Assembly: GCA_035691485.1 (NCBI GenBank) | Contig: DASSIZ010000091.1 | Coordinates: 1-48,198, forward strand | Reading direction: 5' to 3' | DNA: 48,198 nt | From: Terriglobales bacterium | Lineage (GTDB): Bacteria > Acidobacteriota > Terriglobia > Terriglobales > Acidobacteriaceae | Shown here: positions 27,185-29,018 of the stretch, piece by piece | Numbering within the stretch: position 1 is the stretch's first letter | Layout: every line of letters begins with the position of its first letter | Position numbers and translations under genes: made by a program | Notes under the pieces: model-generated | What the model saw: the letters and a program-made list of their open reading frames with translations, nothing else | Databases searched by the model: none | What the model was told of the DNA's origin: nothing

Positions 27185-27393
27185 GAAAAAGGCCCCACCC
27201 CGTCAATATAACCGCATTAGGGTACCGCAAAATCGGCAGGCAGTGAAGTCTCGAAGGTAACTAGAAGTAGTCCGAAATTCGCGCCTGCGTTCTTTACATT
27301 TCATTAGAGTCGGCACACGAAGATTTGATTCATGCAGGCTGACGCGCCAGGATGCGACAGGGCGATTTTGCGAGTCGCTGCCCGGCGTGCGTT

Positions 27394-27421
27394 GTGTGCT
27401 TGCGCCTTGCGCCCGAGCCTG
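27394..27421. repeat. 7-nt periodic array before the ThyX-like gene
   Basis: GTGTGCT, then TGCGCCT, then TGCGCCC, then GAGCCTG. The TGCGCCT unit recurs before folP (43035-43062), one of the few cases where two arrays share wording. Confidence 0.6.
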
Positions 27422-27437
27422 CGATGATGCCGCCGCC

Positions 27438-29018
27438 ATGTCCGATGCGAACAACCTCCCTTCCCACCAGAAAAATACCGCTCCGGCGATCGAGGTTTAC
27501 GCGGTGTATGGCGCGGATCCGGAGATCCAGGCCTATGCCATGGCGAAGTACTCGCGCTCGGCATTGTCGATGAAGGAGTCGCTGCGAGAGATCAATGAAC
27601 AGCGCGCGGAAAAATTTCTGAACACCTTTTACTTTCAGTATGGACACCGTTCCATCGCGGACCTGGCGCACCTGGCGATTGCAGTGGAAAAGCTTTCCAT
27701 CCTGGCGGCGATCGCCCTGGTGGACGAGCAGCGCTGGGATGGACAGGAGCGCTCGACGAGGTACCAGGATTTCAAGCGCGGCGGCTACTTCACTCCCGAT
27801 TTCAGCCGCCTCGAAATGTGCGAGCTGCGATACCGCGACACCGTTGCAATGCTGATGGCCGAGTACGAGGCGCTGTCGGAGACCACCTGGCGCTACCTTG
27901 CGGACAAAACTCCGAAGCCGCCGGAGATGAAGCCGGAGGCGTACGAACGAACGCTGCGGGCGCGGGCATTTGACATCTCGCGCTATCTGCTGCCGCTGGC
28001 GACCAACACGTCGCTGGGGCAGATCGTGAACGCGCGCACGTTGGAGACGCAGATCTCGCGCCTGTTGTCGCATACGCATCCGGAAGTTCGGCACCTCGGG
28101 GAGCTGCTGAAACAGGCAGCGAAGGAGCCGGCATACAACGTGAACGAGGTGCGTTACCGCCAGCTGATCGAAGACGCCAAGGGATACGACGAGGCCTGGG
28201 GCAAGCAATTGCGGGACGACATTCTGAAACCGGTGCGGGTAGCGCCCACACTTGTGAAGTACGCGGAAGCGAACCCCTACGAGATGGAAACGCGGCGTGA
28301 GCTGAAGCAGGCGGCGGCGGAGATCATGGCCGAAGCGCCAATTGCCCCCGCGCCGCTGGTGGATTTGCTGGAAGACGAGCCCCTGGAAATTGAACTGGCG
28401 ACGACGTTGCTGTACGAGCACTGCCACCATTCCTACCGGCAGGTGCGCGAGCGCGTCGAGGGAATGGGAGCGAAGCGGCGCGACGAGATCATCCACCTGG
28501 GCCTGAAACATCGCGGCCGGCACGATGAGCTGCTGCGGCCGTTCCACGCCGGACAAAGCTTCCGCTTCGATATCCTGATGGACATCGGCGGCTTCCGTGA
28601 CATGCACCGGCACCGTCGCTGTACGCAGATCGGACAAGCCTTTACCACGGTCCACGGCTTTGACATGCCGGAGGAGGTGCGCGCGGCGGGCGTGGAAAAG
28701 CGTTACGCCGAGACCATGAAGCGCGCAGCCGAAGCGGCGCAGCATGTGGAAGCAGAGTTGCGGCGCGCGGGGTGCGATCATGCCGAGGCCAGCGCGCTAT
28801 ACCTCATCCCGCTGGGGTACCGCAAGCGAACCCTGTTCAAAATGGATTTCGCCGAGGCGGTGTACGTTGCGGAACTTCGCACCGGGCCGGGCGGGCACAT
28901 CTCTTACCGCCGGGTGGCGTATCAAATGTACGAGGCCGTGGCAAGCCGGCACCCGGCGCTGGCGCACTATTTCCGCGTCACCGACATCAAGCAGGAAGTG
29001 GACCTGCTGCAGCGATAA
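27438..29018 (+). CDS. Tandem ThyX-like protein (two flavin-dependent thymidylate synthase domains)
   Basis: A 526-residue protein made of two domains with the ThyX pattern; ThyX makes dTMP from dUMP using FADH2. Domain 1 has GHRS (His70) and the serine block ERSTRY (Ser106), but the positions of the RHR signature read DEQ. Domain 2 has an RHR at 391-393, but the serine 10 positions after the first Arg is Ala401. Each half therefore keeps a different part of the canonical RHR-x7-S motif. ThyX active sites form between subunits, so the halves might complement each other, or the protein may have another function. ATG 27438 begins MSDANN; an upstream TTG at 27387 would add 17 unlikely residues. 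Confidence 0.85.
   Translation: MSDANNLPSHQKNTAPAIEVYAVYGADPEIQAYAMAKYSRSALSMKESLREINEQRAEKFLNTFYFQYGHRSIADLAHLAIAVEKLSILAAIALVDEQRWDGQERSTRYQDFKRGGYFTPDFSRLEMCELRYRDTVAMLMAEYEALSETTWRYLADKTPKPPEMKPEAYERTLRARAFDISRYLLPLATNTSLGQIVNARTLETQISRLLSHTHPEVRHLGELLKQAAKEPAYNVNEVRYRQLIEDAKGYDEAWGKQLRDDILKPVRVAPTLVKYAEANPYEMETRRELKQAAAEIMAEAPIAPAPLVDLLEDEPLEIELATTLLYEHCHHSYRQVRERVEGMGAKRRDEIIHLGLKHRGRHDELLRPFHAGQSFRFDILMDIGGFRDMHRHRRCTQIGQAFTTVHGFDMPEEVRAAGVEKRYAETMKRAAEAAQHVEAELRRAGCDHAEASALYLIPLGYRKRTLFKMDFAEAVYVAELRTGPGGHISYRRVAYQMYEAVASRHPALAHYFRVTDIKQEVDLLQR

Follow-up and report, generated by a model that had tools for sequence, protein, structure and literature searches.

Does a protein that carries the two parts of the ThyX signature in separate halves still make thymidylate, and if so, how is its active site put together? 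The question arises at positions 27438–29018 of the window, that is, the whole stretch of 48,198 nucleotides from a Terriglobales bacterium (GenBank assembly GCA_035691485.1, contig DASSIZ010000091.1) that was analysed. A first-pass annotation, made from the letters of the DNA, had described a tandem ThyX-like protein there, and had proposed either one composite site per protein or a neofunctionalised flavoprotein. We consider the protein to be the cell's flavin-dependent thymidylate synthase, domain-duplicated and with its active site divided between the halves, at a probability of roughly 0.8.

Two ThyX-fold halves in one reading frame

An open frame on the forward strand runs from a GTG at 27387 to the stop at 29018, with an in-frame ATG at 27438 that was taken as the start because it fits the homologues. 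Numbered from this ATG, ERSTRY occupies residues 104–109, and RHR (391–393) lies within HRHRR (390–394). Pfam Thy1 (PF02511) matches the whole protein in two stretches (E 1.7e-29; 103.4 bits versus a gathering score of 24.8), each half passes the cut-off separately, and the Pfam search gave no match to PF00303 (Thymidylat_synt, ThyA) in the 526 residues. The NCBIfam ThyX equivalog TIGR02170 scores 38.2 bits, below its cut-off of 87.9; it matches at E 0.01 or better in 58/58 members of alignment A1, which consists of the window protein and 57 of 80 homologous loci. The features discussed below are as follows.

27438–29018, + strand: tandem Thy1 (ThyX-like) gene, 526 aa, from frame, Pfam and homologues; the upstream in-frame GTG at 27387 is a possible start
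27516–28124, + strand: domain 1 Thy1 match (PF02511, 60.6 bits), keeping dUMP-side residues (subunit B/C role)
27651–27653, + strand: Ser72 of domain 1, equivalent of the FAD-phosphate Ser71 (subunit B role) of M. tuberculosis ThyX; 58/58 in the family
27723–27731, + strand: DEQ 96–98 of domain 1, at the site of RHR in canonical ThyX; subunit A role lost
27747–27764, + strand: ERSTRY 104–109 of domain 1, the canonical S.RY block (subunit C role)
28143–28346, + strand: helical linker between the Thy1 domains, residues about 236–303, from model secondary structure, with approximate borders
28389–28955, + strand: domain 2 Thy1 match (PF02511, 46 bits), keeping FAD-side residues (subunit A role)
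28608–28616, + strand: RHR 391–393 of domain 2; 58/58 in the family, 40/43 diverse tandem proteins
28638–28640, + strand: Ala401 of domain 2, at the canonical signature Ser position counted gap-free from RHR; variable in the family
28878–28880, + strand: Arg481 of domain 2, equivalent of the dUMP-binding Arg199 (subunit A role); 58/58 in the family, 43/43 second halves

A tandem frame of this kind could arise artefactually, through a sequencing error fusing neighbouring thyX genes or as a chance frame, and the long antisense ORF over the gene, as high GC predicts, would fit such an origin. However, the same architecture occurs in a single frame at each of the 80 homologous loci, two or more Thy1 matches are found in 52/61 genomes (the window's own and its relatives), and tandem genes are present in complete phage and plasmid records. 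Comparison of the window gene with three near relatives gave dN of 0.06–0.14 and dS of 0.8–1.2 in both halves (a fourth comparison, with L030, returned numbers identical to those for L062), and dN/dS is thus far below 1. Together, the single-frame homologues, the complete mobile-element records and the dN/dS ratio rule out a fusion or frameshift artefact for all practical purposes. The low dN and high dS in both halves also indicate that neither half is decaying: purifying selection acts on both.

The antisense ORF itself (483 aa, window 27330–28781, − strand) was considered as a gene in its own right and rejected. The whole-gene antisense frame is stop-free in 2/81 sequences, and the window's own antisense frame, taken over the whole gene, contains one stop, outside the ORF. 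It looks like a shadow of the high GC3 (0.79).

The first-pass annotation had put forward structure prediction as a check, and a single-chain AlphaFold2 model was accordingly built from 58 sequences (mean pLDDT 81.4, pTM 0.83). Residues 14–286 of the model match M. tuberculosis ThyX 3gwc (Z 11.6, rmsd 3.8, 175 aligned residues), and residues 304–522 match ThyX 3fnn (Z 10.1, rmsd 11.1, 172 aligned) and 2gq2 (Z 9.5, rmsd 3.7, 160 aligned); the top structural match outside ThyX homologues reached Z 5.4. Both halves thus model as ThyX folds. Confidence falls below a pLDDT of 50 at residues 61–77, 97–104 and 106–109, stretches that cover Ser72 and the greater part of S.RY; such values are unsurprising in a lone chain because in canonical ThyX these parts contribute to the sites of adjacent subunits.

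A complementary residue split between the halves

The M. tuberculosis enzyme provides a yardstick for the roles of individual residues. Section 9 of PMC6514825 distributes the site over three subunits: (i) RHR 95–97 and Arg199 from subunit A, (ii) Ser71 and Arg190 from subunit B, and (iii) Arg87 (found in some ThyX), the Gln103 backbone, Ser105, Arg107 and Tyr108 from subunit C. Under this residue-by-subunit map, the canonical homotetramer, to which a passage of PMC3498832 assigns 222 symmetry, already joins both parts of the signature from different subunits in one site, as the first-pass annotation had held in stating that canonical sites form between subunits. Each canonical chain nevertheless carries the complete signature: RHR-like and S.RY motifs occur in the same chain, as a contiguous RHR...S.RY signature, in 30/30 single-domain sequences, and this contiguous signature is absent from each half of the window protein. 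The canonical set comprises 29 of 32 single-domain phylum loci and one M. tuberculosis fragment (L158, L162 and L167 were missed by the search with this fragment and left out). Arg87 and Arg190 vary among canonical ThyX too, and carry little weight as witnesses of a split.

Domain 1 of the window protein has the S.RY block at 104–109 and DEQ where RHR would be expected, and domain 2 has RHR at 391–393 with the signature serine gone, both as originally described and, for RHR, at exactly the positions given. The further claim that Ala401 replaces the signature serine is accurate for the window, but residue 401 varies across the 58 sequences of alignment A1 (G 21, E 15, D 10, A 4 and Q 3); it is the absence of the S.RY block that is fixed. 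Pooled over both halves, the contact residues R391-H392-R393, R481, S72, R200, S106, R108 and Y109 are present, and the Arg87 equivalent is Ile, likewise in 17/30 canonical rows. Within alignment A1, D96, E97, E104, S106, R108, Y109, R391, H392, R393 and R481 are each found in 58/58 sequences, which indicates that the split is fixed and is no chance state of a single gene.

The same residues were then counted over a wider range of lineages, for which the first and second halves of 43 tandem proteins were aligned to the canonical sequences. These are the window protein and 42 loci picked for spread from 166 tandem-length frames (148 distinct) that match the canonical profile: 33 are phylum or named Acidobacteria loci, five are plasmids (Actinomycetota, Bacillota, Bacteroidota) and four are phages or viral contigs. 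Among the first halves, an RHR-like motif occurs in 0/43 and S.RY in 41/43 (the exceptions being one S.RF and one S.RA), with the Ser105 and Arg107 equivalents each retained in 43/43. Among the second halves, S.RY occurs in 0/43 and an RHR-like motif in 40/43, the exceptions being RHN in two Bacillota plasmids and RQR in one viral contig. The Ser71 equivalent is S/T in 43/43 first halves and in 2/43 second halves; it is Arg in 37/43 second halves, although this region is gapped and the count hinges on the alignment. The Arg199 equivalent is Arg in all 43 second halves and still Arg in 29/43 first halves, so that this part of the A role has not been cleanly lost. A check by motif only found first-half S.RY together with second-half RHR in 144/148 distinct tandem frames, and the four exceptions (L008, L176, L183 and L185) all lie within the 43; one further frame, L012, has an extra second-half S.RY 105 residues from its end, off the signature spacing from RHR. 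The A role thus falls largely to the second half, and the B and C roles largely to the first. In the open-licence PMC literature, we found no account of such a complementary active-site split.

The two RHN second halves belong to L183 and L185, on Paenibacillus and Bacillus plasmids respectively, and are the sole third-arginine change among the 43.

The residue counts also bear on whether one half might be a structural or regulatory remnant, a scaffold, with the other half making complete sites with itself by means of replacement residues. Retention of the Arg199 equivalent in 29/43 first halves is compatible with this. However, domain 1 lacks an RHR-like motif and domain 2 lacks S.RY in 43/43 cases each, the retained motifs are nearly fixed across divergent lineages, and a scaffold would not be expected to retain just those catalytic residues that its partner is missing. 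We therefore regard a scaffold half as very improbable, and prefer a site to which both halves contribute.

Distribution of the tandem form among genomes, phages and plasmids

The first-pass annotation had also proposed a search of the genome for thyA or a normal thyX. The window's genome (98.54% complete, 145 contigs) yielded no Thy1 match outside the 27438–29018 ORF and no PF00303 match, in line with the tandem protein being the only synthase. It likewise gave no match to DHFR_1, which a passage of PMC1971073 describes as absent from many ThyX-dependent bacteria. The genome does encode a thymidine kinase (PF00265, E 5.9e-50), and thymidine salvage could therefore make up for an absent synthase.

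Among the window's genome and its relatives (61 in total), Thy1 was found in 55 genomes, 52 of which have two or more matches. The sole full-length ThyA (418 bits) belongs to G059, a genome without Thy1, and the other five Thy1-less genomes have either a weak PF00303 match (G054) or neither domain (G004, G019, G023 and G048, 73–90% complete). Partial or weak PF00303 matches (57–100 bits) occur in 3/52 relatives (G001, G032 and G058). Leaving aside the four of these 52 multi-Thy1 genomes in which another Thy1 ORF or a weak match to ThyA was seen, the tandem form is apparently the only synthase in 48/61 sampled genomes of the window's class.

The pattern extends to a draw of 297 genomes from the phylum, in which 150 have at least two Thy1 matches and 59 a single one, PF00303 exceeds 300 bits in 70 and gives a weak partial match in 23, and 19 have neither Thy1 nor full-length ThyA. 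Multiple matches serve as our proxy for the tandem form; among the matches listed, most Thy1 pairs share one open frame and a few are split between contigs (e.g. G325). Full-length ThyA (>300 bits) occurs in 0/150 multi-Thy1 genomes versus 35.4 expected (Fisher p 7e-27, a value that ignores kinship), and 8/150 have a weak, partial ThyA-like match. A table in PMC5954106 agrees with this draw, giving ThyX for 6/6 Acidobacteria and ThyA for none.

Three minor observations concern the additional frames. G006 has, beside its tandem gene, an extra single-domain Thy1 ORF (G006:C52:8461-9078; locus L009 1468–2214, − strand) of 249 aa that scores 79 bits, and 54.7 bits with TIGR02170, below the cut-off. 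Weak ThyA-like frames of about 280–430 aa are found in G095, G141, G169, G177, G234, G302, G310 and G326, which form one genus, and in G263 and G334; these ten genomes have neither Thy1 nor full-length ThyA, and the frames are possibly their thymidylate synthase. Two such frames, L210 558–1433 (−) and L212 517–1398 (−), are nearest to TIGR03283, the methanogen-type synthase, at 104–106 bits (cut-off 174.55). Finally, a ThyA-like ORF accompanies two Thy1 matches at L214 205–1209 (−) of G168, and also in G185, G032 and G001, within the window's family; these ORFs have frames of 220–346 aa and PF00303 scores of 66–100 bits.

Tandem genes are also carried by mobile elements. In phage Tunturi_5, which infects the acidobacterium Tunturiibacter, a tandem gene (48% identity) comes immediately after the gene for a dCMP deaminase, and a dUTPase is encoded about 2 kb away on the opposite strand. 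On a Euzebya plasmid, dcd lies close to the tandem copy. Further carriers are Microcystis and Vibrio phages and plasmids of Miltoncostaea, Paenibacillus, Bacillus and Parabacteroides, and scanning viral sequences with the family profile yielded 2 loci out of 28 stretches, at 28% identity. Phages carry synthase genes for dTMP supply, and the mobile copies hence favour a synthase role.

These distributions can be set against the alternative raised at the outset, namely a neofunctionalised flavoprotein or nucleotide methylase with another substrate (e.g. a UMP/dUMP methylase like Streptomyces PolB, which acts in polyoxin synthesis), dTMP being obtained by thymidine salvage. The encoded thymidine kinase and the TIGR02170 score below cut-off are consistent with such a role. 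In addition, a PDB search with the single sequence gave no match, and with the family profile the sole match up to E 1 was PolB (4p5a), albeit a weak one (E 0.028). Nevertheless, the fold score of PolB against the model (Z 7.1) is lower than that of other ThyX, and a changed substrate is also disfavoured by a near-complete genome without another synthase match, by the lack of full-length ThyA in all 150 multi-Thy1 genomes and by the dCMP/dCTP deaminase genes beside phage and plasmid copies. Furthermore, the residues kept are the ThyX catalytic set; a passage of PMC8316439 reports that S88A, R90A and Y91A variants of T. maritima ThyX leave the flavin intermediate to be consumed by dUMP much more slowly. 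Neofunctionalisation is consequently unlikely. The composite-site synthase is supported instead by the residue map, the absence of another synthase match in the genome, the zero co-occurrence with ThyA and the deaminase-linked phage and plasmid copies.

The genes flanking the tandem gene in the window encode a DUF218 protein, RecA, a CTP_transf_like protein and an aminotransferase, and give no hint of function. Across loci, recA is close to the tandem gene in 27/80, many of which are short-flanked, and in 21/44 of the long-flanked ones.

Predicted arrangement of the site, known relatives and history

Regarding oligomeric state, site geometry and enzyme activity, we infer the following from the residue map. 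Domain 2 has kept the A-role residues, and domain 1 those of the B and C roles. Under 222 symmetry, B and C occupy two different positions and are both domain-1-like, and given that a chain has one domain 1, a lone chain cannot complete a site. Two tandem chains would therefore assemble into a pseudo-tetramer in which each domain 2 would touch both copies of domain 1, resulting in exactly two complete and two dead sites. The domain-2-centred sites would be complete, with FAD on RHR and dUMP held by Ser106, Arg108 and Tyr109 of a domain 1 together with Arg481 of domain 2, and the domain-1-centred sites would be dead. The chemistry would be that of ThyX, i.e. transfer of the CH2H4folate methylene via FAD to dUMP to give dTMP, with no dihydrofolate formed. 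The composite site suggested by the first-pass annotation is hence retained, in a refined form, with two tandem chains predicted to pair and one site predicted for each, and with one FAD per chain as the expected stoichiometry, every second site being predicted dead. It is likely that this widespread branch of thymidylate synthase, apparently the sole synthase in those 48/61 genomes and present on jumbo phages, is now an obligate pseudo-heterotetramer with FAD and dUMP roles permanently divided and two live sites out of four.

Relative to canonical ThyX (PF02511, TIGR02170; PDB 3gwc, 1o26), the window protein shares the fold of each half, the Thy1 profile, the pooled active-site residue set and the genomic role of replacing ThyA. 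It differs in having two domains per chain, a divided signature, a score below the TIGR02170 cut-off and a predicted two live sites per pseudo-tetramer versus four. It presumably works like ThyX, and by equivalog score and contiguous signature it is no canonical member. Among viral models, the one that best matches the window model (E 3.7e-18) is the thymidylate synthase of Microcystis phage LMM01 (phrog_36506; BFVD A0A7D4), which likewise carries S.RY in its first half and RHR in its second, and differs in being viral, 491 aa long and 25% identical in the structural match. We take the ThyX of Chlamydia trachomatis to be about 529 aa, and hence possibly of the long form. A passage of PMC3498832 describes the Chlamydia enzyme as active in NADPH oxidation assays, and if it is of tandem form, tandem-type activity has in effect already been seen. 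Domain duplication as such is already in print: PMC3224940 (Valas and Bourne 2009) notes a domain-duplicated, uncharacterised ThyX for Chloroflexi, which resembles the window protein, by description, in having two ThyX domains per chain, and is presented there, in the passage concerned, without active-site analysis.

Several consequences follow. An enzyme essential for DNA precursors in a major soil phylum scores below the standard ThyX model TIGR02170, and none of the open-licence PMC papers that we found characterises it. Surveys that demand the ThyX signature in one contiguous piece, or a score above the TIGR02170 cut-off, would, we infer, miscall such organisms synthase-less. If the split is as proposed, the flavin-side functions of ThyX would be naturally separated from the nucleotide-side ones within a single polypeptide. 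Either role could then be altered by mutation on its own, whether in cis or in trans, with the other left intact, and the question of subunit roles in ThyX would become testable by cis and trans mutants. It would also provide a clear example from nature of how, once a gene has been duplicated and fused, the copies can degenerate in complementary fashion within a single essential active site.

With respect to the origin of the split, a crude single-event null (seven clearly assigned positions, each lost from one half at random) yields perfect role division in 2 of 128 outcomes, a figure to be read in light of the linkage between positions and the relatedness of lineages, and the case rests instead on the long-term fixation of both residue sets. 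Because the rows share ancestry, the 43 proteins represent a single splitting event, or a few at most. A tree of the halves was computed from 69 rows, drawn from 27 of the 43 tandem proteins and 15 of the 30 canonical rows. Second halves fall on one side of a branch with support of 94/88. First halves need two changes, form a single group in 50% of 200 bootstrap trees, and include four L005-type members that stand apart from the other 23. The tandem form may thus derive from one fusion event or two, a single event being possible. In the tree, the halves of any one protein do not group together, which indicates that the fusion is old.
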